Shown one piece after another: positions 505 to 21,457 of a DNA stretch of 24,748 bases. Below the pieces are notes generated by a model, which had not been told where the DNA came from, did no database searches, and was given only the letters and a program-made list of their open reading frames with translations. Within the stretch, counting starts at the first letter, position 1; every line of letters starts with the position of its first letter. Position numbers and translations under genes: made by a program. The DNA is from Baffinella frigidus (Eukaryota; Cryptophyceae; Cryptomonadales; Baffinellaceae), in contig MU646309.1 of assembly GCA_026770585.1 (NCBI GenBank), forward strand, positions 1,276,202 through 1,300,949. Reading direction: 5' to 3'.

Positions 505-702
505 CTACCTTCGCTCTTTCGGAAAGCTCATACTTTTCTTGAGGTTCTGAGCCCGGTATTCCTCGAGACCGAGAAGACATGCCCGAAGGTATGAGCTTTT
601 CGAGTGCAGGTTACCTTTCTGGAGGTTATGAGCGCGGTACTCCTCGAGACTGAGAAGACATTCCCGGACGTTGTTCTTTACGTTGTTCACCACTGGTCCC
701 AC
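505..702 (-). CDS. HMCES: SRAP gene terminal exon 9 with internal tandem duplication
   Basis: Acceptor AAACAG, phase 0, begins VGPVVNNVKNNVRECLLSL, like human HMCES VVNNSRNNTPECL. The frame runs to a stop at 505. An 81-base in-frame duplication repeats CLLSLEEYRAHNLQK as CLLGLEEYRAQNLKK. A possible donor (GTAACC at 614) lies between the copies, so the tail might be spliced differently. Confidence 0.75.
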   Translation of the reverse strand: MGPVVNNVKNNVRECLLSLEEYRAHNLQKGNLHSKSSYLRACLLGLEEYRAQNLKKSMSFPKERR

Positions 703-3700
703 CTGTTTGGGGTTGAGGGATGAGGGTTGAGGGTGTGGGATTTAGGGTTTAGGATTTTGGGGTCAGAGTTTAGATTGTAGGGTTTAGGGTTTAAGGTTTA
801 GGATTTAGGGTTTAGGGTTTAGGGTTTAGGCGGTTTAGGGCTTAGGGTTCAGGGTTTGGGGTTTGGGGGTTTGGGTTTAGGGTTCAGGGTTTTGGGTTCA
901 GGGTTAAGGGTTTAGGGTTTAGGGTTCAGGGTTCAGGGTTCAGGGTTCAGGGTTCAGGGTTCAGGGTTCGGGGTTCAGGGTTTAGGGTGTACGCACCTCG
1001 TAAAAGTCGAGCTCGCCCTTGAACGGTCGCAGAAGCGAGTTGACTGAACGCGAGGAGAAATCCCCCTCCAGCCACTGCGGTACCTCTGCGCACAAAGATA
1101 CAAGATTCATAACCTGACATGCACGGGGGGAGGGGGGCAAGGCTCCATCATAGACTTTGGGGGGGAGAAGAGTTCAGTCGGCCAGCTGGATTGAAGAGAC
1201 TGCTGTTGACCAACCGCATCTTTCCCTAGTGTCAACCCTGTTCGGCGCAGTCTCCGTCCAGCAACAAAACCTGCCCGATGCAGGCAGCAGTCGCGGAACC
1301 CTCCTGCCGGAGACGAGAGCACACGGTTGGAACTCCGCTGGAACTCCAAGTGCAGCAGGGACACCCACTCCGGGGAAACCCTGGAGTCTAGCTCTGCCGC
1401 GGCTGCAACTTCAAGTGCCGCACGGAGGCTCGATGTGGAAGGAGTTCTCGCTCTGGCACATGTCCGCGGTTAAACATGCCACCCGGCACCCTAAACTCCA
1501 ACCCCTATACCCCAAACCCCAAATCCAGAGCCCTAAACCCAAAACCCAAAACCCTAAACTCCACACACTCCTGGAATCCCCCGGAGTGAGACCGTGGCGC
1601 TCGAGGATGCAGGGGAGGCGATCGTGCAGCCATGAAAGGGTGTTGTTCGACTCGGTGGTGATCACCGTGCAACTTTGCACCGCCTCGCCGCTCGGGGCCG
1701 TCCACCTGATTCAATCGGGGTGGGCATTATATATTAAAAATTAATAGGGGTGAGCATTGCATTTTCAAACACTCTCCGCCCGTAGGGAATTGGAGAAGAG
1801 AGCCTGGCTCGCGGCGCCAATTAAATTCATTGACTACGCCCTGAAGAAAAAGCTCCAAATTGCAATGGGCGTGAGTTTTTGAATTGCATCCTCGTGAGGT
1901 TGAGTTTCTTACGCTGAGGGTCACAGGCCCGAGGCTGGTGCGTAACAACATTGTTTTCTAGGTAAGAAACCCTTCCTGGGTTCGATGCTGTCAGAGTGTG
2001 GGACACGGGGAGATGAGGCTCCATGTGCGCAGTGCAAGGGCGAAACAATATCCATGTGTTGATTGGCGCACACGTTGATATTGTAGCTTTCGGGTGGATT
2101 TTCTGAGGTCGGGAATTGGGTTTTTTGAGGTCGGGTATGCCCGATGCAAAATCCAAGCCTTCCCGAAATCTACAATAGCAGATCGGCCGTGGCTGGTGCC
2201 GAGAGAAACGTTCATGTGGTGATTGGCTCACACGTTGCTAGCAAATAAACTGTGTCTGGTGCTGACCCAACTCAAGGCCCGGGACTAATAAAGAAGAAGA
2301 AGAAGTCTGGTGCCGAGAGAACCTGTCCCAGAGGCCCGCCATGATGAACAACGTTCGTGTGTGGTGGTTCGCGTACACCTGGCTAGCAAACAGACCGTGC
2401 CTGGTGCCGTCCACAATCGTGTGGTCGTAAGGCTACCCAGCCCTTTCAAAATGGCAGGGCAAGAGAGAACCTGTCCCAGAGGCCCGCCATGATGAGCGGC
2501 CCCGCGCCCTCCTTCCGCCGGATGAACCTGCTCGCTCTACAAGAGTCAGGGCCACAATTGAATCAACCTCAGCGTAAACCCAATACACCCTATGACTCAC
2601 GCTATGAACCCCAAAACCTGAACTCTAACAGCCGGATGAACCTGCTCGCGATCTGGAAGAGTCAGAGTCGCAACTGAATCAACCCCAGCGAATACCCAGT
2701 ACACCCTACGCCTCAAGCACTGAACCGTAGCCGTCCGCCTGATAAACCTGCCCACACTCTCGAGCGTCAGAGTCAACACCACCGCTTTCCGGTCCTCAGC
2801 TGCGAGAACCTGTTTCGATAAACCTGAGCGTCAACTGGGAGCAATCAGTTGAGGGTCTAAAAGACATTAAAAAGGTCTGTCGGCAGCTCGCGTTGCGGGG
2901 CGAGGCAGCGGGAGGGTGTGGTAGGGTTTAGGGTTTAAGATTTAGGGTTTAGGGTTTATGGTTTATGGTTTAGGGTTTAGGGTTTAGGGTGTAGGGTTTA
3001 GGGTTTAGGGTTAAGGGTGTAGAGTTCAGGGTTTAGGGGTCAGGGTGTAAGGTTTGAGACCAGATGTTATGTCTATGTCTAGTTGGGCTCACCAATTTGG
3101 TGAACTCGGGCTCTTTCCCGCTCCAAAGTTGACGTTTTTTTACCGCAGTTCCAGCACGTCAACTTGAGAAAACTCAGTCAACCGGATTAAGGCAGACCTA
3201 GTCTTCGTGGACCGCTCGCGTATGCACCACCAGCCCTCCAAAATCAAGTGTTTTGACCGTTGGACACACGCCTGATTTGTACCAGGGCGCCCCCCCACAC
3301 ACCGGACTGCGAAAGGATTTCTGAACCTCAGGGGTGTTTGGTGCCCGTGTCATCCTTGAACTCAAAGAAGCCATCGATCACCACCACACACCAGGTTGCA
3401 TTTGAGGTGGCGGGAGTGGACATGCCCCCGCTCTGCCGCAACCTTCACGTAACTCTCTCTCTCCCCATATCGCTCCATCTCTCTCTCCCTCTCTCTCTCT
3501 CTCTGAAAACCGCTCTATCGTCGGAGATGGCACTGAGGGCGTGACCATCCGAAAACAGGTGGCGTTGGATGCAGAGCTCGGGGGAGAGACCAGGGGTGTT
3601 TGGTGCCCTTGTCATCCTTGAACTCGAAGAAGCCGTCGACAACCACCACGCACCGCCGCGCGTCCAGCAGCCTCTTATGCACCTTTAAGGTTTAAGGTTT

Positions 3701-5891
3701 CAGTGTGCGTTCACACTTTAAGATTTGGAGTCGAAGATTAGCTATGCGTGTATAGGTATGAGGTTTTGAGGAGCAAGGCTGCCAGAAGAAGCCGTCGACC
3801 ACCACCACGCACCGCCGGGGTCTCTAGCTCTGCCTCACTCGGACCGCGCATCCAGCAGCCGCTTGTGCACCTGCCGTGTACGTACATTACATCTTTGTGT
3901 AAGGGTGGCCAAACTACGGCATTCAGTAGAGTGTCACGGTATGCAATACGGTAGGGGGGTACAGAATGCCGGAATTATGGTGGCGCCGGAATTAGGTCTC
4001 CCACCCTTACATTGCGTGTGCGTGCAATGTCGTCTGAACCCTCAACTGAGGGCTCTGAGTTGAAGCACAGGGGGGACCCTGGCTCTGTTTCTGTCTGTCG
4101 ATCTGGGCTCGCCGATTGGCTCTTTCCCACTCCAAAGTTGACGGATGTGTACAGCACACCCAGCATGTCAACTTAGGAACAGTGAGGCAACCCGAGCGAG
4201 GCAGAGCTAGATGTTGCCTCAGGGAATGGCCCAGGGCTCGGATGTCGGGAACCCCCGTTTCTTTACGCAAAGAAAACCCTTCTAGCTCTGCCTCAGTCGG
4301 GTTGTCCGACCATGCTCAAGTTGACTTGCTGGAGCTGTGGTACCAATCCGTGACGCAAGGGGAAGGGGACTCACCCGGAGGAAGTTGTCGTTGCGCCCGT
4401 CGCAATGTCGTTTGGGCGCTAGAGCCCTGCGTCTTCACCTATCTCTCCCCCTAGCGTCAAGCCGACGTGTACCAACTGAATAAACTTCGATTTCCCCCCG
4501 TTTGCGCCCCTAGCGGAGGGTTCTGAGTTGCAGCACAGGGACAGGCAGAGGGATTTGAACAGTTTAATAGTGACGCAACCCAGGGTGAGTTTTGTGAAGC
4601 AACTCGTTCTTGGTATAAATCATAAAACAAATATCACTTAAAACTGAGAAAAAAAATCAAGTCCTTTTTAAACGAGGTCTCGTTTTATAATTTGTACCAG
4701 AACGAGTTGCTTTACAAAACTCACCCTGGGTTGCGTCACTATGAAGTTTGGCAAAGGGATTTGAACTGTTTGCACAGCACCCGGGCGCAAGGGGAAGGCA
4801 AGGGGTTTTGAACAGTTTCCTATGGGCAAGGGGTCTCACCCGCCGGCGGTTGTCGCTGTGCGCGCTGATCATCACGCACAGTGGGCCAACCCGAGTGAGG
4901 CAGAGCTAGCGACCCCGGCGCGCGGAGGGATGGGGAATCACCCGGAGGAGGTTGTCGCTGCGTGCGTTGATCATCATGTGCCCTTGCTTCCCCGCCTGCG
5001 CCCGCACCAGATCATGCTCTAGCTAATGATGCACAATCATGCTCTTGCTAAAAATGCACTTCCCCGCGTGCGCGCGCGCGCGAGATCAGGCACTAGCGAA
5101 TAATGCACACGCCACCTTTGCTCGCAGGTTACAAGAAACCCGCCATTTGATCGCAAGAGGTGGACACGCATTCCCCGTTACTGAGGCGTGGAGGGATGCG
5201 GCAACCGGATTGTGCAGACAGGGGTTGCAAAACACTGGGCGTGTCTGCGTTGGCGGGTCTGCGAGAAAACAGCTGCTGCTGCCCACCCGGAGGAGATGGC
5301 AAGTTGTCTGGGTGAGTCGGGAAAGCCACCTCCTGGATCGTGTCAGCCTTGACATACGACGGGATCAGCCCCCAGCGCATCGGCTCCACAACCAGCTCAT
5401 CCGCTCCCTGCATGCGGACGTCGACGCTTGAGATGTTTGCCCAGCCGCAAAAAAACGTGAGCGCAAAGTCGACCACTCGTCGACTGGGCTCGTTGCTGTT
5501 CAGGTAACCTTGCGGCGCAGCGTGGGGAGGTAGCTCCCCGGTCCGGCGTTGTACTTCGGTTGCCGCGCGAGATACTTGTCCTTGTCGTCTTCAGGGAAGA
5601 CCTGATGAGGACAGTTTGCTGTCAGTGACAGCAAACTGACGGCGAGCAGCGAAGGAGCATATAACCTTGCCTTCGAGTGGCGTGTCTCTTTTTCATAGCT
5701 GCTGCATGTTCTCAATGGCGGTGCGTTTCCCGTGGCCGGACCAACAGCCCAACCAAGCTCTGGAGAAGGGTCCCGGGGCTCACCGCGGGTCGCTGGTACG
5801 CTGGGGGAGCGCTCTCTCCCGCCACGCAGGAGCGCGAAATGGCATCTGGCGCCAGTGTGCAGGCGCAGCGCCCGCAGCTCCCTTTCCCCAT
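505..5891 (-). CDS. HMCES: SRAP-domain abasic-site protein (HMCES/YedK family), nine exons
   Basis: Exons in gene order: 5891-5784, 5601-5509, about 5425-5330, 4986-4942, 3682-3591, 2527-2471, 1705-1593, 1085-997, 702-505; about 296 residues against roughly 220 for bacterial YedK and 350 for human HMCES. Motifs in family order: CGR near the start, KYNAGPG, MRWGLIPS, INARSDN, CVVVVDGFFEF, IMAGLWD, TVITTES, WLHDRLPCIL, then a tail with VVNN…ECL like animal HMCES. The family crosslinks to abasic sites in single-stranded DNA through Cys2, with help from Asn, Glu and His; the Asn (NAR), Glu (FFEF) and His (HDR) are present. Phases match at every junction except exon 2 to 3, which is one base off. 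The Cys is at residue 6, not 2. Introns carry partial copies of at least four exons. Family identity is strong; activity is open. Confidence 0.9.
560..700 (-). repeat. 81-base in-frame tandem duplication in SRAP exon 9
   Basis: Two copies share CTCGAG…TACCG and flanking bases with about 85 percent identity by eye. The first copy is preceded by CTCAG and the second by CTCGG. Confidence 0.75.
716..990. repeat. TTTAGGG-type degenerate array in SRAP intron 8
   Basis: Heptamer units GGTTTAG and GGTTCAG fill nearly the whole intron between exons 8 and 9. On the sense (minus) strand they read CCCTAAA / CCCTGAA. Confidence 0.9.
997..1085 (-). CDS. HMCES: SRAP gene exon 8
   Basis: Acceptor GCGCAG, then EVPQWLEGDFSSRSVNSLL…ELDFYE, matching the WL… C-terminal helix of SRAP. 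It ends in phase 0 at donor GTGCGT, which opens directly into a TTTAGGG-type array (sense strand CCCTAAA). Confidence 0.8.
1086..1592 (-). other. SRAP intron 7
   Basis: No exon fits here. The stretch 1490-1565 is a C-rich array on the + strand (G-rich on the sense strand of this gene), one of the few arrays in that orientation. A 195-codon + strand frame over 1157-1744 overlaps exon 7 and the array and is not taken as a gene. Confidence 0.5.
1593..1705 (-). CDS. HMCES: SRAP gene exon 7 (HDR active-site exon)
   Basis: Thirty-seven codons with WTAPSGEAVQSCTVITTE and WLHDRLPCIL, the TIIT…H(D/H)RMPVIL block carrying the catalytic His. Acceptor AATCAG in phase 2 follows exon 6. Donor GTCTCA in phase 1 fits exon 8. 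Confidence 0.85.
1706..2470 (-). other. SRAP intron 6 with duplicated segments
   Basis: Contains three related 50-base segments near 2045-2085, 2210-2262 and 2350-2408 (core GTGGTGATTGGCTCACACG and CAAAC…TGCCTGGTGC) and a copy of the exon 6 3' half. I see no additional exon. Confidence 0.6.
2313..2348 (-). pseudogene. copy of SRAP exon 6 3' half
   Basis: Minus strand reads FIMAGLWD followed by the same GTTCTC donor as exon 6 (2471). The match covers the last ~30 coding bases and the splice site. Upstream coding sequence is missing, so it is a partial exon copy. Confidence 0.75.
2471..2527 (-). CDS. HMCES: SRAP gene exon 6
   Basis: Reads FIRRKEGAGPLIMAGLWD, matching the family's PYFI…L.MAG(I/L)(F/Y)D strand. 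Acceptor GAGCAG, donor GTTCTC, phase 2 at both ends. The 3' half is duplicated at 2313-2348, and the acceptor with the first codons is repeated near 2640 and 2745. Confidence 0.85.
2514..2800 (-). repeat. tandem copies (~105-113 bp) of SRAP exon 6 acceptor region
   Basis: The + strand motif CCGGATGAACCTGCTCG, the complement of the exon 6 acceptor and first codons, occurs at 2518 and 2632, with a weaker copy near 2736. Each is followed by related sequence (GAGTCAG…CAACT/GAATCAACC). Only the first is followed by the rest of the exon. Confidence 0.75.
2916..3055. repeat. TTTAGGG-type array in SRAP intron 5
   Basis: About 20 heptamer units of GGTTTAG with variants, C-rich on the sense strand of the gene. 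Confidence 0.9.
3060..3210. repeat. dispersed element related to 4093-4330
   Basis: Shares GGGCTC…TTGG, TCTTTCCC(G/A)CTCCAAAGTTGAC and CAGCA(C/T)GTCAACTT with the sequence at 4100-4185, and ends in a degenerate GGCAGA…CTAG. It looks like an old mobile repeat. Confidence 0.55.
3338..3395 (-). pseudogene. decayed copy of SRAP exon 5
   Basis: Minus strand reads CVVVIDGFFEFKDDTGTKHP, almost the exon 5 peptide, then TGA where exon 5 has TG plus the GTCTCT donor. Its 5' part and acceptor are not recognisable. It lies downstream of the real exon in gene order. Confidence 0.8.
3591..3682 (-). CDS. HMCES: SRAP gene exon 5 (DGFFEF active-site exon)
   Basis: Thirty codons plus two bases: VHKRLLDARR CVVVVDGFFEF KDDKGTKHP, matching the RC(V/L)V..DG(F/Y)YEW block; the Glu is the family's catalytic residue. 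Donor GTCTCT in phase 2 joins exon 6 exactly, making a Trp at the junction. Of three copies of this exon in the intron, this is the only one intact. Confidence 0.85.
3783..3870 (-). pseudogene. copy of SRAP exon 5 split by a 29-base insertion
   Basis: Minus strand begins after a good acceptor (CGGCAG) with VHKRLLDAR, then a 29-base insert containing GAGTGAGGCAGAGCTAG, then the bases for RCVVVVDGFF out of frame. The insert also occurs at 4890-4920 and matches the end of the CAGAGCTAG repeat family. Confidence 0.8.
4100..4345. repeat. foldback repeat with CTAGCTCTG / CAGAGCTAG core
   Basis: Left arm about 4155-4210 (CAGCATGTCAACTT…GAGGCAGAGCTAG) is repeated inverted at about 4280-4340 (CTAGCTCTGCCTCAGTCGGG…CAAGTTGACTTGCTGG), with about 70 bases between the arms. 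Confidence 0.6.
4362..4407 (-). pseudogene. decayed copy of SRAP exon 4
   Basis: Minus strand bases match exon 4 (…GACGGGCGCAACGACAACTT) and end at the same point with GTGAGT, a better donor than the real one. The codons for Asn-Ala-Arg are altered. Confidence 0.65.
4567..4742. mobile_element. MITE-like foldback element, ~61-base arms
   Basis: Left arm 4567-4628 (ATAGTGACGCAACCCAGGGT…) and right arm 4682-4742 are near-perfect inverted copies around an AT-rich loop. The ends fit a TA target duplication (TA before GTGACG and after CGTCAC). It has no coding capacity, and it lies in SRAP intron 4. Confidence 0.85.
4838..4884 (-). pseudogene. decayed copy of SRAP exon 4
   Basis: Minus strand reads MMISAHSDNRRR against MMINARSDNLLR of exon 4 and is followed by GTGAGA. 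The catalytic Asn is lost. It is followed within 40 bases by the 29-base CAGAGCTAG fragment. Confidence 0.75.
4942..4986 (-). CDS. HMCES: SRAP gene exon 4 (NARSD active-site exon)
   Basis: Fifteen codons, QGHMMINARSDNLLR, holding the NAR motif whose Asn helps in catalysis. It is phase 0 at both ends (acceptor GGGAAG, donor GTGATT). Two decayed copies lie further downstream in the same intron. Confidence 0.8.
5330..5425 (-). CDS. HMCES: SRAP gene exon 3 (start uncertain by one base)
   Basis: Encodes VDVRMQGADEL…MRWGLIPSYVKADTIQE, the MRWGL block of the family, then donor GTGGCT. The best acceptor (CTCAAG, ending at 5427) would start the exon at 5426, one base too early for exon 2's phase. The frame is open far upstream, so only the junction is in doubt. 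Confidence 0.75.
5509..5601 (-). CDS. HMCES: SRAP gene exon 2
   Basis: Acceptor CATCAG, then 31 codons in phase 0 containing YLARQPKYNAGPGSYLPTL, which corresponds to the RYNVAPG segment of YedK. It ends AAG before GTTACC. Reading on would hit a stop two codons later, so splicing here is required. Confidence 0.85.
5784..5891 (-). CDS. HMCES: SRAP gene exon 1
   Basis: Starts at ATG (5891) and reads MGKGSCGRCACTLAPDAI…, matching the family N terminus MCGR…L…, for 36 codons. It ends in phase 0 before a good donor GTGAGC. The usual arrangement has Met directly before the catalytic Cys. Here GKGS intervenes, and no in-frame ATG sits next to the Cys codon. Confidence 0.8.
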
Positions 5892-6102: not shown

Positions 6103-6886
6103 ATGGGCGTGTGCGCTCTTTTTCTTTTAGTGCTGTGCGTTGCGCCTGCCGTGGTCGTCGCGGATGATTTCCAGACCATCGGCAACCAGGCCATGGGGGA
6201 TTTTCAGAAGGGGAAGTTCCAGGAGGCCTACGACGGGTTCCTGAAGCTGCAGAAGATCCAGCCGGACAACTTTGAGCTGTTCATCGCGGCGGGGCAGTCG
6301 CAGCAGTCCCTCGGCAACGCCCAGGCCGCCCTCGAACAGTACAACATGGCGGCGACGGCGCAAGGCGGGAAGGGTCCGCGCGCGTACGAGCCCTACTCCA
6401 GGATGGGCGACCTCCTGAACCAGTTCGGCGATAAAGTGCAGGCGCTGGATGCTTACAAGGAGGCTCTGCGGCTTTCTCCGAAGGAGGTGCAAGTCCTCAT
6501 CTCGCGCGGCAACCTGCACCAGTCTTCGGACGGATACTTCGAAGCTGAAAGAGATTTCGCCCAGGCTGTCAAACTAGAGCCTGGCAACGCTGCGGCCTGG
6601 AGCGGGCTCGGGGTCGCGTGGATGTATCTCGAACACGCCAACAGCACAGGGCGGCCTGTGGGGTGGGACTTCGACAGCTACGACGAGGGGTCGATCCACG
6701 CGCTGCGGAAGGTGCTCTCGATCAGCCCGGGGCAGATGACGACGCTCTCGAACCTCGTGCTCGCGGAGAACCGCGTGTGCGACTGGGGCGAGCGCGCGAA
6801 GCACCAGAAGCTCATGCGCAAGGCGCTCAAGGATGCTGTCCAGAAGAAGCACAGCTTCGCGCCGCCTTTCCACGCCTTCGAGTACG
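6103..6886 (+). CDS. GT41 gene exon 1 (signal peptide and TPRs)
   Basis: The largest exon at 784 bases. The start at 6103 is chosen because it places the hydrophobic segment at the N terminus. It encodes the TPRs and the linker VCDWGERAKHQKLM, which corresponds to CDWxDY… of OGT. It ends TAC G in phase 1 at donor GTTCAA, where the repeat array starts at once. Confidence 0.9.
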
Positions 6887-9800
6887 GTTCAACCTCAAAC
6901 CCCAAACCCCAAACCTCAACCCTAAACCCCAAATCCTAAAAACTAAACCCGAAAACCTGAAACCTAAACCCTACGCCACAAAACCCTAAACCCTAAACCC
7001 TAAACCCTAAACCCTAAACCCTAAACCCTAAACCCTAAACCCTAAACCCTAAACCCTAAACCCTAAACCCTACACCCCGAACCCTACATCCTGAACCATA
7101 CACCCTACACCCTACACCCTACGCCCTATACCCTGAGCCCTAAACTCTGAACCCTAAATCATGAACTTTACACCCTACACCCTACACCCTAAACCCTAAT
7201 TCCTGAACCATAAACCACAAATCATCAACCACAAACTATCACCCCGAACCCTACAACCAGAAATCTGAAACCTGAAACCTAGAACCTAAAACCTAAACCA
7301 GGTGATATCCCCTCGTCAATCACGCACCTGCCCCCTGGTGTATCCAACCTCCGAAACCTCAAAACATTCACCCCTCATCTCCAAACCCTGCACCCCAACC
7401 CCCCAGGCTACTCCCCGAAGGAGCTGCTGATCAACACAAAGTGGCTCTCCTACCAGATCGAGCAGAAGGTAACACTAAACCCTATACCATAAAACCTAAA
7501 CCTTAAACTCTAAACCCTAAACCCTCAACCCTAACCCTAAACCCTGAACCTCTAAACTCTAAACCCTAAACGATAAACCCTAAACCCTAAACCCTCAACC
7601 CTAAACCAAAATTCCTGAACCCCAAACAATAAACAATCAACCATAAACAATGAAGCCCAAACCATAAACGATATCCCCAGGTGAAGCCTATGAAGGCAGG
7701 CGTGCCGGCAAACAGTGCCGAGGCTCCCGACAGGCACGCCCCGCACCTGTTGCTAGTCAGATCCTGCCCGGTTTTGCTACCGTCCTTGTCAAACCTGTCG
7801 TTGAGCCTTTTTGGAACACTGTGTTGACTGAAGGTGAAATGTAATGCGGCCGCCTGGAGAGAGTGGCGGGGAAGCGGCTGCGCGTGTGGACTAAAGCTGA
7901 AATATCAAGTGGACTCAAGTTGAAATGTAATGAGGACTAAAGCTGAAATACAAAGGGGCACTCTGGAGAGAGTGGAGGGGACGTGGCTGCAGTCTGGTCC
8001 GGCCCGACTATGTTAACTAGTCTGATCCGGCGGGGTTATGTGACCTTGGGCTACAGCTGTCATGTAATGCGGCAGTCTGGCGAGGGTGGAGGGAAAGGTA
8101 CCCTGTGCGGACTAACGCTGAAATGCGCAAACTAACGATGAAATGCGCTGTTTTTGGCACTCGGTGTGGACTGACGCTGCAATGTAATGGAACATTCTGG
8201 AGAAAGCGGAGAGGAAGCTGCGTGTGGCGTACTGCGCATGGGGAAAGTGTGGGGAATGTGCTCGCTCGCTCTAAACCCTAAACCCCAAACCCTACAGCCG
8301 GGAGAGGGTGGAGGGGAAGGGGCTACGCGTGGCGTACCCTAAACCCTAAACACTAAACACTAAACCCTAAACCCTAAACCCTAAACCCTAAAACCTACGC
8401 CCTCAGCCCTCAAACCTGAACCCTAAGCCCTGAACCCTAAGCCCTGAACCCTAACCCTAACCTCTAAACCCTAAATCCTAAACCCTCAACTCTGAACCCT
8501 GTAATGCGGCAGTCTGGAGAGGGTGGAGGGGAAGAGGCTGCGAGTGGCGTACATCAACGGCGCGGGATTCCACAATGGCACCACCACTTCGCGGTACTAC
8601 CCTACACCCTCAATTCTCGATCCTCAACCCTCACCCCTCGACCATAACCCCAAAAACTGTGTGTAATGCAACCAGTGATCTGCAGATGTGGTGGTGGTGC
8701 CTCAATGGCACCACCACTTCGCGGTGCTACCCTACACCCTAAACTTTAAACCCTCAACCCTCAACCTCAAACCTCAACCTACACCCTGAGCCCTAGCTCT
8801 TCCTGCGTTTCATTCGTCCTTGAAAGTATTCAAGAGCTGACATCCAGTGCAAAACGGCGAGCAGAAATCCCTGAGGACGAGGCATGATAAACTTCATGCA
8901 GCGCCAGGAACCCTAGGCACAGCATAAAACCTTGATTAATTCAATCGGCGTTCACCTAACTCGGTGGTCGCCCCAGCACGGGGAGACATCTGATTGGATC
9001 GGTTGTCTGCAGATGCATGCGGTCGATGTTCGGGCACCACGACAAGAAGTCGATGTTTGTGATTGGCTTGCCCCTCTCGCACGACGACAAGTCTCCCGAG
9101 CGCGCCGATATTCAGTACTCCCTAAACCCTAAACCCGAAACCCTAAACCCCAAACTTCGACCCCCGAACCCCAAACCCCAAACCCCAAACCCCAAACCCC
9201 AAAATCCAAAATCTAAAACCCAAAACCCAAAACCCAAAACCCAAAACCCAAAACCCAAAACCCAAAACCCAAAACCTAAACCCTAAACTCTGAACCCTAA
9301 ACCCCAAACCCTAGACCCTAAACCATAAACCCCAAACCCAAAACCCCAAACCCACAAACCCAAAACCCAGAAACCCCAAAACCCAAACGCTCAACCCCAA
9401 ACCCCAAACCCTAAACCCCAAACCCTGAACCATAAACCATAAACCCGAAACCAGGAAAGTGTGCGACGGGTGGGTGGAAGCAGCCGCGTTGACCGACGAG
9501 CAGGTGTTTATTGATTAGGTCTTAGGGTTTAGGATTTAGGGTTCAGGGGGTTAGAGTTTCCCCTGAACAGGGTCCAGGGGTTTTATCAGGACAGCATACT
9601 TTATGGGTTCAGGGGTTTTATCAGGACAGCATGGTTGAGGGGTCCAGTGTCTAGGGTTTAGCGTCGGGTGCAGTCGACTGAATCAGGAGTGTGAGAAGGC
9701 CAGGATGGTGTGGCTGTGCGTGGGGTTGAGGCTTTTGAGTCGGGAGCAGTTGACTAATCCGCGCGATCCCTAGTACTGTCCCTGCCCGGTCGCGTCCCGC

Positions 9801-12800
9801 CGTGGTAGGTCATTTAGGTCATTTGGGTTCTTTTAACTCCCACCATAGGCGGACACTGGAACTTGTTCTGCAGGAAATCCATGTGCAGACCTGTCCGGAC
9901 TAGTCAAGTGCCGCGGAATGCGCAGGCTCGTCGTATGACTGCCCGTATAATGTATGTGTGAAGGTGAGTTGAGCCTAGCGTTGCCGAGTTCGTCGTACGA
10001 CTGGCCGTATGATATATGTGTGAAGGTGAGTTGAGCCTAGCGTTGCCGAGCAGGTGGCCGCGGAGATTTCGAAGCAGCAAGTGCAGATCCTGGTCGACAC
10101 TACGGGCTACACCATGAAGCAGGTTGCCCTAAACCCTAAACCCTGAACCTGAAACCTGGAACCCGGAACCCTGGACCCTAAACCCTGCACCCTGCACCCT
10201 AAACCATAAACCATAAACCATAAACCAAAAATCTTCAACCTTAAACCCTGAACCCGAACCTCTGACCCCTAAACCCGAAACCTGAAACCCGAAACCCGAA
10301 ACGCTCAACACTCAACCCTAAACCCCAAACCCTAAACCCTAAACCCTAAATCCCAAATCCTCAACTCTTCACCCGAAACCCCAACGCCGAAACCCCAAAC
10401 ACTAAACCCGAAACCTCGGGAGTCCTTGGCAGAGGACGGAGACGATCGCGCTCGCGCGCGTGCCGATCACTGTGTCCTTCCACGGCTTCCCCGGTATCAG
10501 GCAACGCCTAAAGTCATCAGATAGTTGACTAGAAATATCTCTGGATCCGGCGGTTGGTCCTCGACAGTTCTCAGGAGGCGCGGTATCCTACATCCTATAC
10601 CTTAAACCCTACACCATCGCCCCTGAATCCTGATGCGCTTGCGGGCCTGCCGATCGTTGTATCCTTCCACGGCTTTCCCGGTGCCCTAACCCCTATACCT
10701 TAAACCATAAACCATGAACCCTAACCCCTAACCCCTGAAACCAGAACCAGAAACCAGAAACCAGAAACCAGAAACCAGAGACCATCAACCAGAAACCAGA
10801 AACCAGAAACCAGAAACCAGAAACCAGAAACTTCACACCATAAACCATAAACCATAAACCATAAACCATAAACCCTCAACACGCCCTTCCTATTTTCAGA
10901 CTGCAGGCTATGTTTTCAGTGAGCGTCGGCAGCATCATCCAACGCTGCGCGGGCAGTCAACTTTGCGGGACTGGTCAATTTTGTGGGATAGTCAACTTAC
11001 CGGGGACTCCCTTCCGCAGGCACGATGGGCGCGAGGTTCATCGACTACTTGTTCGCTGACCGGTACGGCCGATTCAAAAGTCAACTCCGTGGGAAACCCT
11101 CTGTGGGCTCGAGATTTTTGGAGCTTTTGCCAACCACTTAACAGGCACCGAGGTCCTTTTCGACCGGATTTCCGGGCGAGATTCTGGTTGGGTTCCACAG
11201 CAAAAGATAAGACTTGTACCATAATCGTTTAGATGGACCGTTTCACGAAGTCCCTGGTGGCTACTAAGTGGAGGGTTGACTTATGATTGGGCCGCGTCTA
11301 CGTCTTAGATCTCCTTCTACTGCAAATCCACAGATGATGTCTCGAATTCTCCAGACAAGACACTAGAAGTACTTGCAAGTAACTTTTGACGATTTTTGGA
11401 TAGATTCTTGGGAAGGAAATTGCCTTTTGACGATGAAGCTGAAGCCGTTCAAGGACACCAGCGTGTCATTGATATTTTGAGACTTCCCCTGTGGGTTCGC
11501 AGTAGTTTTCTGGTCCTGGTGGGCGTTCTGGAACGGTCACATGTTCCAGACTAACGCTTGACCCTCTGTGATTGATCGCGATTTTTGTATCTCACAGCAC
11601 TACCGTGGAAGGCTTGTGTGGGAAATCTTTCCTGATCGTTCCACGGTGGTAGTGCTGTGCGATTGATCTATCACCCTACCGTGTTTTCAAGGTACACGTT
11701 CCAGCCGGAGGCAGCCGCGTTCTGCCGCGAAAAGCTCGCGATCACGCCGTACAGCACTAAAACAATTTTAAAAGCAATTCCGGGACTTTTAAAGCCCTAT
11801 ACTGTTGAGTATTATAAATTGTGTACGGAGTCGCGTCCAAATATAACGTAAGATTGTTGCATGGTTAGGTACACGTTCCAGCCGGAGGCAGCCGCGTTCT
11901 ACCGCGAGAAGCTGGCGATTACGCCGTACACGTACCTCATCAACTCCCACCGCACCGCTCGCCGCGAGGTGCTCTTCCACCCTCAACTGAAACCGTGGAC
12001 CATGGACTATGCACCCTGAACCCTCAACCATGAACCTTGAACCCTGCATCCTGAACAATGGACCATGAACCTTGAACCATGGACCTTGAACCCTGAACCA
12101 TGAACCATGAATCCTGAATCCTGAATCCTGAACTGCAAACTCTGAACCATCAGCCCTAAACATAACACCCTCAATCCTAAATCCTAAACCCCACAACGCA
12201 AACCCTACACCAGGTGTTAGCGAAGGGGGGGCCTACGCGAGAGGAGGCGGGCTTCCAAAAAGACGACCTGGTTTTCGCAAGTTTTAACCAGCTGTACAAG
12301 GTCGAGCCGAAGGTGCTCTAATCCATAAACCTTAAATCCTGAGCCCCAAACCCCAAACCCTAAACCTTAAACCATGAACCATGAACCATGAACCATGAAC
12401 CATGAACCATGAACCATAAACCTAAACCCCAACCACAACCCTAAACCTTAAACCCTAAACCCTAAACCCTAAACCCTAAACCCTAGACCCTAAACCTTAA
12501 ACCTTAAACCTTAAACCCTAATCCATAATCCCTAAACCCTAAACCCTAAACCCTAAACCCTCATCCCTAATCCCTAATCCCCAACCCCTAAACCCTCAAC
12601 CAGGTGTGGGGCACGTGGATGGGGGTGATGAAGAAGGTACTAAACGCCCTAAACCCTAAACCCCAAACCCTGAACCCTAAACCCTAAGCCCTAACCCTCA
12701 ACCCTAAATCCTAGGTACCAAACGCCAAGCTTTGGATGCTCTCCTTCTCAAAGGCGGCGTACAAGTACCTCGAAAAGTCTGCCAAAGCACATGGCGTTGA

Positions 12801-14059: not shown

Positions 14060-14073
14060 CCCGCTCAGCCGTA

Positions 14074-14190
14074 CAGGGGTACCTCGCTCATAAGAAACGC
14101 CCACCCCCCTAGGACCACCAGAGGGCCCTAGGCATAGCCCTACTGTAGGGTCCTAGGAGGAGGCGGTTTCTTATGAGCGAGGTACCCCTG
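14074..14190. mobile_element. MITE-like element, CAGGGGTACC ends
   Basis: Terminal inverted repeat of about 26 bases starting CAGGGGTACCTCGCTCATAA, 117 bases long, flanked by TA on both sides. The core has CCTAGG palindromes. It sits in the 3' flank or UTR of the GT41 gene. Related copies lie at 22604 and 22756. Confidence 0.9.
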
Positions 14191-14232
14191 TAGCCTCTGT
14201 GGGGATGCGTGCATGGCGGCGGTGTTCGTATT

Positions 14233-15453: not shown

Positions 15454-15748
15454 GCTTTTTGGATTTAATCTCGGCAGATGGCTAAATCAATTCATTTTCA
15501 AAAGGAGGCTCAACAGAATAAATTAGTTCCGGCATAGTAAATTTGATTAAGCCTTCTAATTAAATAAAAATGATGACCAAGGAACTGATTTTTTGGATTT
15601 AATCTCGGCAGATGTTTTGGATTTAATCTCGGCAGATGGCTAAATCAATTCATTTTCAAAAGGAGGCTCAACAGAATAAATTAGTTCCGGCATAGTAAAT
15701 TTGATTAAGCCTTCTAATTGAATAAAAATGATGATCAAGGAACTGAAT
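15454..15748. repeat. AT-rich tandem duplication
   Basis: Two copies of about 135 bases (GGATTTAATCTCGGCAGATG … AAGGAACTGA), almost identical, with the first 23 bases present once more between them. The composition is far more AT-rich than the surroundings. Confidence 0.9.
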
Positions 15749-16166
15749 TTAGTAGGTCTGGGGGCTTGAGGAGAGGGAAGGTCTCCCCTGCAGCGCCCCT
15801 GCAGAGGACTCACCGAGCTTAGCAAGGACGAAGAGGAGGAGGGCCAATGCATGCATCACGACGCAGAGGAAATTTCTAAGCCATAAAAAGAGTAAGCATT
15901 TTGAAGATGACAAGACAAGCGTGACCCCGAAGATAAATGCCGCGCAAGATTTTTTGCGCGCAAGATTTTTTTGCGATCTGTCCTTTAGGTCCTTTAGGTT
16001 TTGATTTCTCCCAACATATGCTAACGACACGGCATTTTCGCTTTTGAATCGCATTGAGCTCTCCAGTGCCAAGGCTCGTGAAGAGGGGATAAAGGGTGGT
16101 TCTTTTGGGGTGTTTGAGTTAGACCAAACAGGTACAGGCTCGCACACACACCAAAGCTCATGGTAA

Positions 16167-16367
16167 AGCCAATGTGGTAGGATTTGGCCAAAGCGAAGAT
16201 CGAACTAGCGAGATTGCGAACTTCTAGATGGACCGTAATTATTAGTAAACACCGATTTGTACTGCAAAATTTGAATTTAAAACACTACATGTCCAAAAGA
16301 GTCCATCTCGAAGTTCGCAATCTCGCTAGTTCGAACTTCGCTTTGGCCAAGTCCTACCACATTGGCT
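16167..16367. mobile_element. MITE-like foldback, 66-base arms
   Basis: Arms 16167-16232 and 16302-16367 are inverse complements with three mismatches in 66. The loop is AT-rich and the element has no coding capacity. Confidence 0.9.
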
Positions 16368-16590
16368 CTATCCCATGCTTGGCGCATAGGAGCGTCAACT
16401 ACGGATACCCCAAAGGAAACAAGATTGCAGAAGGTGAGATGTGTTGTGTGGGGGGGTGAGTTGAGATAGACACGATTTGGCCTTTACCGGTCAAAAGTGA
16501 TGGTCAAATTCTAAAATCGTTTTATGGAGAAACAAAAGAAGACCAGAATCGGAGGGTGGGAGAGCAGGCTATTTGCACAGGAACACGATC

Positions 16591-16689
16591 TTCCGACAAG
16601 ACCGCCAAAAAGTTAGCGGCACTTTTGTGAAACAGAATTGAAAGTTAGTCCACAAAAGTGCCTCCAACTTTTTGGGGGTCTTGTCGGAA
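16591..16689. mobile_element. MITE-like foldback, 39-base arms
   Basis: Arms 16591-16629 and 16651-16689 (TTCCGACAAGACC…CACTTTTGTG) match inverted with three mismatches around a 21-base loop. It lies 230 bases upstream of the next gene. Confidence 0.9.
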
Positions 16690-16920
16690 CACCTCGAAAA
16701 ACGGGCCATAAAATATTTTCGGTACCTGAGGCGGGCCCGTCCGGAGGAGAAAAAAACAAAATAATCAACTTTTGGCAACATTCTTGGACCGATGTCAACT
16801 TTTGATCTGCTAAAAAGCACCTAAAAAGCACCCCTCCAGAATCGCGCTCTTCTCTGCGCACTCCCTTGAGACAGCAGCCCTACGCCCGGCGCCCGTGCGA
16901 ACCACCAGCCAGAGACCGCA

Positions 16921-17120
16921 ATGATGAGCGACTGGAGAGAGGATTTCCACTCCAGATCCCCAGCAGCTGGGCGCCCGTTTGACGTCCCCATGAGCCCACC
17001 ACCCAGCGAACCAGCGAAGCTCAAGTCCTTGGAGGAGCAAACGGCGTCGGTGATCAGGATGAGCGCGCTTTCCGCCAAGATCTTCACGGAGAGCAGGGCA
17101 AAGCTGCGCACGGCCTCGCG
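16921..17120 (+). CDS. coiled-coil gene exon 1
   Basis: MMSDWREDFHSRSPAAGRPF, a Pro/Ser-rich stretch, then a likely helix LKSLEEQTASVIRMSALSAK. It ends CG in phase 2 at the consensus donor GTAAGT. Confidence 0.65.
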
Positions 17121-19273
17121 GTAAGTTGCGCAAGTCCTGGGAGATGTTGGCGCATCAGATGCAGGCTGTGTCCTCTCGGCACCGGTACGTTTCAATGAAC
17201 CTAACCGTGTTGCTCCTCCCACCAGGCAGTATCTTCCTCCGGTGAAGGCCAACGTCAGCGTCTTGAAATGTACGGAGCCTCCCCCGCCCCTTCCCCAGCG
17301 TTGTGCTCGTGTCGGCACACACAACGTCGCTCTGAAGTGACCCAAGCGGGAATCGATACCTCCAATCACCACGCACAAGGGGCAGCCTCTTGCAGCGGTA
17401 TTTTGCCATAAGGTTGCGCTACAGCCTGATCATGAGCGCACTCCATCGATGCCCTGACAAAACGCCTCCCGCGCAGCCGAGCTCGAAGGGCTCAGGAAGC
17501 TCGTAGCGGAAGCCGGGGGCTGCCTCTTCCTGCAGGTGCGCGCGGAATCCCCGAGGGAGAAAACGCTTCCGACTGCATGCGTGCTCGACTGACAGTTCGC
17601 CTGCATCGAAAGAATATGAGAGAGACCCCCTCCCACCATGTGCGCAGTTTGTGCGGAGTGCTTTGAGGGCCAACGATCGCAGTTTGTCGCCTGCGCGCAA
17701 ACGGGGTGCCCTTCCCGCTCCTTGACACTCTGCGTTCCACAGGTCCAGGACGGCATCATGGCGGTGCTTGCCGAGCATCAGCGCTACAAGGTGAAGACCT
17801 CTCCCGGTGCCATGTTTTCCCTGAGTGGCACTTTGTGCGCCGGCCGAGGGACAGACGGCCACAAACGACTTCTCTGAAGCCCATTCGCCTTTCGCAGGGA
17901 GCGACGCAGGAGGCCATTCAGAACGTCCGGGTGTCACACGAGCGCTGCCGAAGCAAGCAGGTGCGATGTTTCAGCACTCCGGGCGTTTGTGCACGCACGT
18001 GTTCTGCGCCTCCAACGTTTGCGCGCTGATGAAACGATGTTTTTGTGGCAGATCAACGCTTCTGCGGGGCTGAGGTGCGAGCAGCAGAAGGCCAATGAGG
18101 GGTGGCAGCAGGACTCCGCCAGAATTCTGGGCGCGATCACTTCTTTTGCAAACGCGCAGTAAGATCCCCCCGTCTGGTGCAAGGAAACGATGCAAGAAAA
18201 CAAAACTTTGAGAGTGAACCACCTGCGGTTGAGAGTGGACCACCTTAGTACCGGAGGGGACACGCTTTGCACCAAGAAAGGGACGTACAATAGATATATG
18301 GAGGATAGGGCTGCACGTTTTGAGTGAGTAAGCAGCCTGTAGGTGGTCCAAACTCAAATCCAGAGACTCGCGGAAACGAAGCAGCGCACGTTGAAGGTCC
18401 TTTGGGTCTTTCAGTTTTTTTGTGCTTCCAACACAGGCGGACACCCCACACGAAAAAAAAGAACCCTCACCCCCCCCCCTCCCCGCAGAGAGGCGATTCG
18501 TCTGCAGCGTCCTGCGACGTCCGATGCGGGCAGCCAGACCGTCACGGACGTCACGGAAGCGGCGAGCCAGTTCCCGGAAGACGACGACTCCGAAGCTAGC
18601 CAGGTGAGATGGGATCTGCAAAACCCTATCCTGGCCTGCTTCCCCCCGAACGCGTGCCTCAACACAGCTGTTGCCCCCAGAGGAAGACGACACGGAAGAT
18701 AGCCAGGTGAGGTCCTTTAGGTCCTTGAGGTTCTGAGATCACCCACCAGAGATGGGTCCTGCGACGCGTGCCTTGACACAACTGTTGTCTCTAGTCACGC
18801 CTGCACTCATCCATCAGGAGGATGCACATGTCGCACCAAACGGTTCCACTTTCTCAACGGTGATGCTCGGAGCCGTTTTTCGATCTAGAGTGTACCTCTT
18901 TCTGTGCAATGAGAGAGTTGTTCGTTTGGTTAGGAGAGTTTGGAGCTGACGGTCTGTTCCAAGGGCGTGTGCTGAAGGGGGTTTGCTGCAGGTGGAGCAG
19001 GAAGCGAAGGTGGCCGAGAACCACTATCTCCTCGACGAGTACAAGAGCACCTGCACTACTCTTCAGAACAAGCTCATGGTGAAGTCCAGACCCCATTTGT
19101 GACTTGCCGCGACACTGCTGCTGGCAACACGGCTGCGACTTGCCTTCCAACGTTTGTTGAGAAGAAGTGTGGTTTGGGGTTGGAATCACTCAGAACTCTC
19201 CAAGAATCCTGTGCCGGTAGATCAAGGAACCCTGAATCCTACACCCTAAGCCCTAATCCATAAACCCTCAATC

Positions 19274-19305
<32 letters not shown>

Positions 19306-19392
19306 ACCCTGAACCCTAATCCACAAACCCTGAACCCTAAACCCTCCACCCTCCACCCTCAACCCTCAAACTTCAACCCTCAACCCTCCACC

Positions 19393-19430
<38 letters not shown>

Positions 19431-19434
19431 AACC

Positions 19435-19473
<39 letters not shown>

Positions 19474-20274
19474 ACCATCAACCATCAACCATCAACCCTT
19501 AACCCTCAACCCTCAACCCTCAACCCTCAACCCTACACCAGGACCTGCGTGGAAGCTACGATTTCCTCGAGAGTCAGTACATGGACCGCGTGGACGTGAC
19601 GAGTGGCAAGCACCCCGCACTTTCACTCGCTGCCATCAAGAGCGCCATCAAGAAAGAGGTACCCCCCCCCCTTTCTTCTTTCTTCGGGAGGGGCGAGGCC
19701 AGGATAGGCGCGTCCCGGTACCGACACGCGTTTTTCAGCAAGGAAGAGGTACACGCTCTGCGCGCGGTGTGCGCCATTTGGCAGAGGCCAACACGGAGTT
19801 GTGCCGTCCAGTGACGTTTGGATTTACCTGGGTGGGACAGATCACGACTCCGCCGTAGGAAGCGCCCCGGCCCAAGCAACCTTCGCTCTCCAGCTTCGTC
19901 TGGATGCCGCGGTTCGGCCCTCCAACCGGCCTGTTCTTCCACCATTCTTTCTCCAGGCCCCTACGCCTGGAACCTGTACATACTGTCGCCTGTTTGAGGA
20001 GTTCGACATGATTGCCTTGACGGTGCTTAACCTAAACCCTAAACCCTGAACCCTAAACCCTAAACCCTAAACCCTAAACCCTAAACCCTAAACCCTAAAC
20101 CCTAAAACCTAAACACAAAACTCAAACCCTAAACCCTAAACCCTGAACCCTAAACCCCAAACCTTTCACCCTCAACCCTGAACCCTAAACCCTAAACCTA
20201 AACCCTAAACCATGAACCCTAAATCCTAAACCCCAACCCCTAAACCCCAACCCCTAAACCCTAAACCCCCAAAC

Positions 20275-20313
<39 letters not shown>

Positions 20314-21457
20314 ACCCTAAACCCTAAACCCTCAACACCAAACCCTAAATCCTCAACCCTAAACCCCAAACCCTAGATCCTAAAACCCACTTCCTAAACT
20401 CTAAACTCTAAACCCCAAACCCCAAACCCTACACCCTAAACCCTAAACTCTCAACCCTAAAACTTACACCCCACACCTTAAACCCTAACCTCTCAACCCG
20501 AAACCCTACACTCCAAACCCCAAACCCCCACTCGCAAATTTCCGCGCGCCTCTGGCGTTTGCCAGAACCTGTCTGACTTGCTGAAAGGCATCGTCGCAGG
20601 AAGCCCAAGGTGCGGACACACTTCGAACAACTTTATTACAACGGCTCCTCGGACGAAGACACCAAAGCCAAAACCGGTTCGTCCCAGACAAACGAGCAAC
20701 CATATTTCGAGCATAGGCTTGCTTTCCCTTGCTTGGTCTTTGTCTGCGAGTTTCTTTCCAGAAAAAAACCACACCCGGGCAACTACGTTCACGATGAGCC
20801 TTGCCTGATCTGATCAGCCCGTGTGCCCTCAGGACTCGTTGCGACTGCGAAGGAGGAGGAATCACGCCCCAAGACCCCCGTCACCCAGCACAAGAGGCGC
20901 GGTCAGTCATTAATAGAGCATGCTCCACATTCAGTGCATTTTTGTCCTGGCTTAGTTTCAACAAGCGTTAAATTTAGTCAGCCACTCGGAGACTGCTCAC
21001 TTGGTTTGGTTCCAACCCTGAGAGACATGCACATCCCAAACCTGAGAGCCATGCACATCGGGCCACGTTGACACTTTACTTTTAACCATCCCCTCCCCGA
21101 ATCCAGGTGAGGAGCAGCTGGAGAGCGAGCGCAGCGCGCCAAAACAGGTTCGCCCCAACAATTCCAGAGAGGAGGACCTGCGTCCGAGCAACACTTCCAG
21201 AGAGGAGGACCTGCGTCCGAGCACCGCACCCCTCTGCCCTCTCGCCTGCCCCCCCTCCACCGCACACCTCTCCCCTCACGCCCCCCCCTCTCCCTCTCCT
21301 CTTCTCCCCACGCAACGCGGGACCCTAGCCGCCACCCCTTGTAGTGTCTGTGCCGCCCTCTGTGGGGCTGTCCAGCGAGGAGGATCTGCATCGGGTTGAC
21401 AGCACAGAAACGATTCCCACTCTGGTCTCACGTAGAGCAGAAGCGTGCGCGTTCTGA
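16921..21457 (+). CDS. unrecognised coiled-coil-like protein, about 14-15 exons
   Basis: I do not recognise the family. Exons 16921-17120, 17226-17269, 17477-17535, 17743-17790, 17898-17960, 18052-18158, 18489-18603, 18683-18706, 18992-19078 and 19542-19658 join with matching phases. Exons 20600-20676, 20833-20901 and 21107-21147 also match each other. The link over 19659-20599 and the last exon are uncertain. The start is ATGATG at 16921. The protein has a Pro/Ser-rich N terminus, helix-forming stretches rich in Ala, Glu, Gln and Lys, an acidic segment (FPEDDDSEASQ) and a charged, lysine-rich C-terminal part (SSDEDTKAK, KEEESRPK). No signal peptide or membrane segment. Donors here are closer to consensus (GTAAGT, GTGAGA) than in the GT41 gene. 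Confidence 0.6.
17226..17269 (+). CDS. coiled-coil gene exon 2
   Basis: QYLPPVKANVSVLK after the split Arg. Acceptor CACCAG, donor GTACGG, phase 1. Confidence 0.55.
17477..17535 (+). CDS. coiled-coil gene exon 3
   Basis: ELEGLRKLVAEAGGCLFLQ, strongly helical, phase 1 in and phase 0 out. Acceptor GCGCAG, donor GTGCGC. Confidence 0.6.
17743..17790 (+). CDS. coiled-coil gene exon 4
   Basis: VQDGIMAVLAEHQRYK, phase 0 at both ends. Acceptor TCCACAG, donor GTGAAG. Confidence 0.6.
17898..17960 (+). CDS. coiled-coil gene exon 5
   Basis: Twenty-one codons beginning GATQEAIQNVRVSHERC, phase 0 at both ends. Acceptor TTCGCAG, donor GTGCGA. Confidence 0.6.
18052..18158 (+). CDS. coiled-coil gene exon 6
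   Basis: INASAGLRCEQQKANEGWQQ then a helix ending FANA. The donor GTAAGA overlaps an in-frame TAA, so splicing must occur for the gene to continue. Phase 2. Confidence 0.6.
18395..18445 (+). repeat. introner-like fragment in coiled-coil gene intron 6
   Basis: AGGTCCTTTGGGTCTTTCAG … CCAACACAGGCGGACACC, inside the intron between exons 6 and 7. Confidence 0.6.
18489..18603 (+). CDS. coiled-coil gene exon 7
   Basis: EAIRLQRPATSDAGSQTVTD then an acidic end PEDDDSEASQ. Acceptor CCCCGCAG, donor GTGAGA, phase 0. Confidence 0.6.
18683..18706 (+). CDS. coiled-coil gene microexon 8
   Basis: Eight codons, EDDTEDSQ, resembling the end of exon 7 in both DNA and peptide, so it may be a copy of it. The acceptor must be the AG at 18681-18682, directly after a CAG. 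Donor GTGAGG starts an introner-like sequence. Confidence 0.45.
18992..19078 (+). CDS. coiled-coil gene exon 9
   Basis: VEQEAKVAENHYLLDEYKST then CTTLQNKLM, coiled-coil-like. Acceptor GCTGCAG, donor GTGAAG, phase 0. Confidence 0.6.
19210..19541 (+). repeat. CAACCCT array in coiled-coil gene intron 9
   Basis: Long run of CAACCCT heptamers with AAACCCT and CCACCCT variants, ending CTACACCAG at the acceptor. Confidence 0.95.
19542..19658 (+). CDS. coiled-coil gene exon 10
   Basis: Thirty-nine codons, DLRGSYDFLESQYMDRVDVT then SGKHPALSLAAIKSAIKKE, phase 0. Donor GTACCC. A similar AAGGAAGAGGTAC string recurs at 19740, perhaps a copy of the exon end or a 10-base microexon. Confidence 0.6.
19957..20020 (+). 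CDS. possible exon 11 of coiled-coil gene, frame unresolved
   Basis: After the acceptor TTTCTCCAG two frames are open. Phase 0 gives APTPGTCTYCRLFEEFDMIA up to GTGCTT. The frame reached through the 10-base microexon 19739-19748 gives PYAWNL up to donor GTACAT, which then fits the next exon's phase. A transcript would decide. Confidence 0.35.
20024..20530 (+). repeat. CCCTAAA array in coiled-coil gene intron
   Basis: About 70 heptamers of AAACCCT, CAACCCT and relatives, including near-perfect runs at 20035-20105. Confidence 0.95.
20600..20676 (+). CDS. coiled-coil gene exon 12
   Basis: KPKVRTHFEQLYYNGSSDED then TKAKT, acceptor GTCGCAG. It ends in phase 1 at GTTCGT and joins exon 13 in frame. 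An alternative frame from the AG at 20564-20565 is open too, but looks less protein-like. Confidence 0.5.
20833..20901 (+). CDS. coiled-coil gene exon 13
   Basis: LVATAKEEESRPKTPVTQHK then RR, highly charged. Acceptor CCTCAG, donor GTCAGT, phase 1. Confidence 0.55.
21107..21147 (+). CDS. coiled-coil gene exon 14
   Basis: EEQLESERSAPKQ after the split Gly. Acceptor AATCCAG, donor GTTCGC, phase 0. Confidence 0.5.
21163..21400 (+). repeat. three copies of a GAGGAGGACCTGCGTCC segment
   Basis: TCCAGAGAGGAGGACCTGCG occurs at about 21163 and 21196, and a diverged TCCAGCGAGGAGGATCTGCA at 21371. Each includes a potential CAG acceptor. The first two look like duplicated starts of the exon at 21376. 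Confidence 0.75.
21376..21457 (+). CDS. possible terminal exon of coiled-coil gene
   Basis: After GTCCAG one frame reads EEDLHRVDSTETIPTLVSRR then AEACAF and TGA at 21457. That frame does not match exon 14's phase 0; the phase-0 frame gives RGGSASG and stops at 21399. The stop position is therefore uncertain. Confidence 0.35.

Follow-up and report, generated by a model that had tools for sequence, protein, structure and literature searches.

Why should the introns of three neighbouring genes hold so many partial copies of the exons beside them? This question is raised by a stretch of 24,748 bases from Baffinella frigidus (contig MU646309.1; the source genome comprises 382 Mb in 1,364 contigs), hereafter called the window, which carries a SRAP/HMCES-like gene, a GT41 glycosyltransferase gene, and a third gene. 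An initial annotation, made from these bases, had taken exon edges to be continually duplicated into the adjoining introns, and our analysis supports this interpretation in part. The partial exon-edge copies in neighbouring introns are confirmed, comparable copies lie next to about half of the exons sampled elsewhere in the genome, and their placement follows a side rule with few exceptions. Our best reading is that short local direct duplication recurs throughout the genome and that splicing makes exon edges permissive to it. The exons and copies in the window are as follows.

615..702, minus strand, SRAP exon close to the gene's 3' end and source of the copy at 531-585 (splice boundaries, pair comparison)
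531..585, minus strand, copy of the 3' edge of SRAP exon 615-702, with the donor crossed by 3 nt, at 87%
2207..2497, minus strand, tandem duplication of about 145 bp that spans the donor at the SRAP exon end near 2472
3591..3682, minus strand, SRAP exon with copies on both sides
3785..3872, minus strand, upstream copy of the 5' part of SRAP exon 3591-3682, beginning at AG
3329..3392, minus strand, downstream copy of the 3' part of SRAP exon 3591-3682, ending at the exon end, at 91%
4942..4982, minus strand, SRAP exon with its 3' edge copied twice downstream
4830..4874, minus strand, first copy of the 3' edge of SRAP exon 4942-4982
4360..4395, minus strand, second copy of the 3' edge of SRAP exon 4942-4982
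8513..8593, plus strand, GT41 exon 3, copied on both sides
7826..8335, plus strand, five decayed upstream copies of the 5' edge of GT41 exon 3 (repeat family D19)
8700..8724, plus strand, downstream copy of the 3' edge of GT41 exon 3
10433..10493, plus strand, GT41 exon 7
10635..10682, plus strand, downstream copy of the 3' edge of GT41 exon 7, with the donor crossed by 2 nt
11869..11968, plus strand, GT41 exon 9
11690..11753, plus strand, upstream copy of the 5' part of GT41 exon 9, beginning at AG
18489-18603, plus strand, third-gene exon 7, source of a downstream copy
18676..18711, plus strand, downstream copy of the 3' edge of third-gene exon 7

Altogether, ten exon edges, belonging to eight exons of the window, are each accompanied by one to five partial copies. 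At all ten edges the copies are contained on the intron side of the edge, a 10/10 count that depends on the exon near 2472 having been chosen by eye from two near-identical segments, and at 10/10 edges the copy reaches or crosses the splice site. All ten sources (10/10) likewise include an exon edge, as against 44% for random exon-touching segments. In the SRAP duplication at 2207-2497, 33 nt are identical between 2315-2347 and 2463-2495, and the former is taken, by eye, to be the copy. The upstream copy at 3785-3872 is broken up by a fragment that resembles, by eye, a dispersed terminal inverted repeat (TIR) element. Upstream of GT41 exon 3, four copies are placed at 7826, 7935, 8049, and 8169 (spacings of 109, 114, and 120) with a fifth at 8295-8335, and this spacing of about 110-120 bases makes them resemble an old tandem array. 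The copy of GT41 exon 9 departs from its exon by three silent changes and one replacement change, and the spacer between the two is unrelated to either. GT41 exon numbers here are those of the initial annotation minus one (exons 3, 7, and 9 were its 4, 8, and 10). Its list of sites stands for the SRAP gene, the GT41 gene, and exon 7 of the third gene; the copy listed for third-gene exon 9 came down to a weak 17-nt match and was not substantiated, and the repeats near 21156-21457, listed as a last exon, are tandem repeats to which no exon could be matched.

To see the copies in a setting chosen regardless of them, we turned to 43 exons elsewhere in the same genome, taken from kinesin and kinase profile matches, mostly short, and viewed with up to about 700 bases per side (the sampled loci carry labels of the form L0xx, those around the 43 exons being L026-L068; acceptors were placed from the profile match and the sequence). 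At least one partial exon copy is found in an adjacent intron for 21 of these 43 exons, and on both sides for nine, whereby the claim that exon-edge copies are pervasive holds outside the window as well; six further exons, in L024 and L025, gave no copies. Moreover, in 51 of the 53 exon-copy pairs of the sample, it is the 5' half that is copied upstream or the 3' half that is copied downstream (Fisher 6e-13, with pairs that are not mutually independent), and both exceptions lie near the exon middle. Many of the 53 pairs reach or cross a splice site, and some are wholly inside the exon core. Copies dropped at random nearby would not produce such a side rule. A duplication that breaks within the exon would, because the protein is kept intact only by the version that has a splice site and is continuous with the remaining exon.

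How dense such duplication is, and whether it favours exons, was judged from local direct pairs, defined by an offset of up to 1,500 and at least 32 bits with heptamer arrays masked. There are 38 of these in the window under the hand mask (35 under an automatic one), where 20 block shuffles average 0.05, and a control of 40 kb from E. coli K-12 gave one local pair. Local duplication extends beyond the window, and is in fact denser elsewhere. Of 20 stretches chosen, 12 consist of N; in eight readable ones (seven blindly picked and one adjoining the window), 181 direct pairs were counted over 33,015 unmasked bases, a density of 55 per 10 kb where the window has 18. Direct orientation dominates among the local pairs of these stretches (195 direct against 45 inverted), and none of the six inverted pairs in the window touches an exon.

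Several of the window duplicates have no exon in them, and include the following three along with a further one at 4987/5059.

9928..10050, plus strand, intron-only tandem duplication of 61 nt at offset 62, at 93% (9928/9990)
2517..2726, no strand assigned, intron-only duplication at 82% (2517/2631)
15457..15750, no strand assigned, intergenic tandem duplication of 158 bp, at 97.8% over 136 nt (15457/15615)

Intron-only duplicates are about equal in density to exon-touching ones. Across 23 kinesin-exon loci, local duplicates cover 25.9% of the bases within exons and 21.5% of those outside, a difference whose bootstrap interval (-2.5 to +14.7 points) spans zero, and across all 43 loci the point values are 26.9% and 20.0%. 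In the window, the corresponding exon and other fractions are 0.316 and 0.275 for the SRAP gene, 0.086 and 0.205 for the GT41 gene, and 0.037 and 0.024 for the third gene. Exon and other bases being similarly covered, duplication is not special to exons, and no significant exon preference is seen. An excess of exon-touching sources does occur among the hand-listed duplicates of the window (10/15 against 4.5-5.3 expected, P 0.004-0.012), and is biased by the window having been picked for its exon-edge copies; in addition, exon-intron pairs are expected to stay recognisable for longer than intron-intron pairs. Exon edges as a special target, which the initial annotation had proposed, thus find no support here, and the finding named there as telling against it, duplications equally common in introns, is largely what the coverage values show. 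Two of its other suggestions fared better, as the copies do differ in age and each surviving event adds length to an intron.

With regard to form, the 53 exon pairs have a median match of 59 and a median offset of 246, and the duplications around the sampled exons range in length from tens of bases to a few hundred, at spacings of 85-650 bases, with breakpoints blurred by divergence. The eleven most alike pairs of the eight stretches (at least 95% over at least 30 bases) measure 36-120 bases, all have unmatched sequence between their members, and have match-to-offset ratios of 0.07-0.57. Full-unit tandem cases are represented by 9928/9990 and 15457/15615 in the window and by loci L035, L036, L040, and L023 (349 nt at offset 369, 96.6%). 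The kinesin exons of L022 and L023 carry large local duplications, which show up as profile matches that overlap and in some cases contain stops. Separately, a coding-like segment of about 36 residues occurs four times in 1.8 kb at L018:3500-5244, and represents either protein repeats or exon copies.

Rather probably, then, short direct duplications with filler arise very often, and exon edges tolerate them since the broken copy is spliced out. Judging from the sequence, break repair would be the cause. A broken or stalled DNA end would copy a nearby stretch from the sister or the homologue, and this copying would then be abandoned and the end joined to the other end, leaving a copy, a filler, and a copy. 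A break inside an exon would be tolerated only when a splice site falls within the copied stretch, such that one version remains attached to the rest of the exon while the severed half stays intronic and would be removed by splicing. Exon-internal breaks combined with splicing would leave 5' parts upstream and 3' parts downstream. Were this so, it would show that splicing allows exon-breaking duplications to persist. Intron growth and splice-site turnover are usually deduced from rare dated cases, and with differently aged copies next to roughly half of the sampled exons, this genome would allow direct measurement of how often splice-crossing duplications arise, how large they are, and in which direction they run, and would offer many natural tests of new acceptors and donors taking over.

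Two accessory ideas were tried and rejected. Complementary halves, where the end of the 5' copy would equal the start of the 3' copy, are striking in several exons, though the permutation P is 0.75 over nine exons. Heptamer arrays as the filler between target duplications looked promising in that direct repeats scoring at least 28 flank 7 of 86 arrays against 0.4% for mismatched flanks, but random intervals of the same length are flanked in this way too (6.8%).

Several observations weigh against this reading. A match-to-offset ratio of at least 0.8, as for pure tandem duplication, is reached by only 3 of the 53 pairs, and since most are not full-unit tandems, the filler has to be assumed. Moreover, upstream copies often begin at the acceptor CAG without clear similarity before it, and the similarity of the flanks is slight (score 9.7 against 8.0 for mismatched flanks, P 0.015), which would be unexpected with an identical-sister template. 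Finally, the differences between copies and exons lean toward silent ones, since over 813 codons 166 changes are silent, 105 are replacements, and 3 give stops, and the silent share of 0.606 (locus bootstrap 0.512-0.691) exceeds 0.431, the value that a neutral copy next to a conserved exon should give. The share is equal (44/72, as a tally) in the 15 pairs that extend beyond the exon core by more than 12 nt, so the silent excess is not limited to anchored copies. Such silent-biased differences may reflect a past or present coding use of the copies. Taken together, anchoring and silent bias allow two readings, namely that diverged gene versions were joined or that some copies are constrained.

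The first of these, which we regard as possible though clearly the lesser prospect, is that diverged gene versions (alleles, homeologues, or lost paralogues) became joined. An exon break would be repaired from the other version, aligned with it only through the exon, and the copying would run back through the acceptor of that version into its own intron end before end joining. Copy and exon would thus have different genuine intron ends and mainly silent differences, and the silent share agrees with this. So too does the anchoring: of 31 upstream pairs, 11 have a CAG within the first 7 nt of each member, compared with 7 of 88 intron-only pairs (the 11 include the L056 hit at 661, whose CAG is about 40 nt ahead of the acceptor). 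The flanks before 12 CAG-anchored copies, L056 included, are also acceptor-like, with CTRAY in 6/12 against 95/833 for random CAG (P 0.0013) and AG being scarce (6 in 11 flanks, P 0.008). However, donor-side anchoring is absent, given that GT at the end of a copy shows no excess (9/22 against 32/88 for intron-only pairs), the silent excess extends to copies that share intron sequence, and a search with GT41 exon 1 in the readable part of the assembly gave no second gene version. In a genome search with GT41 exon 9, the 40 candidates scored out of 263 were all taken up by a dispersed element (described below). It is conceivable, with a similarly modest chance, that exons are repeatedly rebuilt in place, each repair from a diverged version supplying a new intron end and exon half. 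If true, the old exon half would be left, with its genuine acceptor, in an intron that keeps lengthening; introns would then consist of piled-up earlier exon edges and splice sites, while exons would shift along the DNA with the protein unchanged; a source in diverged gene versions would also be a new way for recombination to reshape gene structure.

An assembly artefact, in which the assembler interleaved diverged haplotypes, is unlikely. Direct orientation, the side rule, and the silent-type differences would all be compatible with interleaved alleles, and false exon gains are documented in PMC9516828. There, false duplications are mostly gap-separated, and the heterotype ones resemble our pairs as local direct exon duplicates that differ like alleles. 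In contrast, our copies are gapless between members (N in 0 of 53 pairs, and one gap of 130 N in the whole window) and can number several per exon. Up to four copies lie on one exon side in the sample and five in the window, at identities of 72-97%, and so many copies with varied identities are a poor fit to two haplotypes.

Returning to constraint, we find it somewhat more doubtful still that the copies are functional and selected, with a role such as that of an alternative or decoy acceptor in splicing or of an alternative exon start. The silent bias and the acceptor-like flanks would suit such a role, as would the fewer gaps per substitution (0.055 in exon copies against 0.122 in intron-only pairs) and a third-position excess among copy-unique changes (28/22/63), but that count mixes changes in the copy with earlier, inseparable changes in the exon. 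Third-position polarity indicates no single branch, with 54 changes from exon A/T to copy G/C and 64 in reverse. Against function, the other exon half is missing at the 12 loci examined, where at the break the copies give way to unrelated DNA instead of forming complete exons, and the 53 pairs contain the 3 stops along with 14 frameshifting gaps. A mechanism that targets splice sites and specifically copies exon edges (reverse splicing, an introner-like element, or RNA-templated repair) could explain the acceptor anchoring and the start of GT41 intron 11, which is like that of exon 12, but is quite improbable in view of the lacking significant exon enrichment and donor anchoring and the overall absence of a donor/acceptor register signature (permutation P 0.21). 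Dispersed elements, compared as raw counts against a small genome sample, occur beside 12 of 47 copies and at 157 of 845 random intron places, and transposons as fillers were treated as background.

Set beside known systems, the type of event is already familiar from single cases, and it is the density here that is unusual. In a potato gene, according to PMC4974935, a duplication over an intron-exon boundary left a truncated exon in the intron. Alike in both are a segment that crosses the boundary, an intronic truncated exon copy, and the reuse of existing splice signals; unlike here, where about half of the sampled exons are affected and mostly with filler, the potato case is described there as one dated event with RNA evidence. 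For C. elegans helq-1, PMC8654963 describes tandem duplications that stem from aborted recombination joined by polymerase theta. These, too, are direct and come from presumed one-ended invasion and end joining, but are about 100 bp-10 kb in size and belong to a mutant, whereas those here are smaller, contain filler, and occur in a natural genome, with a putative pathway. Among titles and abstracts of the literature searched, with subscription journals mostly outside, none reported exon-edge copying on this scale.

A third comparison is the Rogers or AGGT model of intron birth by tandem duplication, which is treated with intron sliding in Drosophila in PMC2891723 and cited as Rogers 1989 in PMC4974935. 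As here, an exon is duplicated and one copy turns intronic, but our copies extend existing introns, except for one candidate.

12637..12714, plus strand, GT41 intron 11, 78 bases, which opens much like exon 12 and is otherwise mostly heptamer array

This intron begins GTACTAAACGCC, matching the start of exon 12 after GT at 9 of 12 positions, which 0 of 650 mismatched pairs reach, and is a candidate for an intron created by tandem duplication, with a heptamer array enclosed. The register signature, an intron start like the downstream exon start, is present in 1 of 26 introns, this one (P 0.21, with one SRAP intron of the 26 entered 3 nt off register), and the AGGT model was accordingly rejected as a general cause.

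The three genes themselves were modelled as follows.

505..5602, minus strand, SRAP/HMCES-like gene (Pfam SRAP at 4.7e-25, PDB HMCES alignment, splice boundaries)
5509-5602, 5330-5407, 4942-4982, 3591-3682, about 2472-2512, about 1593-1708, 997-1085, and 615-702, minus strand, SRAP exons
6103..14059, plus strand, GT41 glycosyltransferase gene (OGT-like, TPR and catalytic parts; 14 exons, 673 codons including the stop)
16921..19658, plus strand, third gene (nine exons read)

The SRAP gene start at 505 is that of the initial annotation and takes in the copy at 531-585. SRAP exon boundaries are accurate to a few bases, and the segments near 1593-1708 and 2472-2512 are ones we take to be exons by eye, from comparison with HMCES. 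The joined GT41 reading frame matches Pfam Glyco_transf_41 at 2.4e-74, and the third gene matched no Pfam family. Searches of viral contigs with the GT41 protein and the repeat pattern found no relatives.

Dispersed elements accompany these genes, one of them in the spacer of GT41 exon 9.

11750..11843, plus strand, dispersed element of about 95 bases in the GT41 exon 9 spacer, with its left end abutting the exon 9 copy

This element matches at least 40 other places in the genome at 77-87% (40 of 263 candidates scored). An abundant element of about 140 bases, with ends CTAGCTCTGCCTCACTCGG and its complement, is like a miniature inverted-repeat transposable element (MITE) and is found at 3077-3201, 4118-4210, and 4281-4351 of the window; one region of L002 matches 15 other sequences among 56 compared. 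A palindromic dispersed element with ends like GGGGTACCTCGCTCATAAGAAAC occurs in several copies and orientations (14071-14193 and 22601-22884 in the window), and no exact match to this end was present in viral contigs.

Many window introns also contain degenerate CCCTAAA heptamer arrays. These telomere-like arrays are almost always C-rich (CCCTAAA) on the coding strand, with 60 against 8 (and 1 undecided) near the 43 sampled exons and 16/17 in the window genes, a bias likely explained by the opposite orientation, in which TTTAG followed by GG would serve as a splice acceptor. Long imperfect hairpins are seen at 4564-4745, 16159-16377, 16591-16689, and 24060-24215 of the window, and a strongly coding-like stretch lies on the plus strand at 21946-22131, outside the assigned genes.

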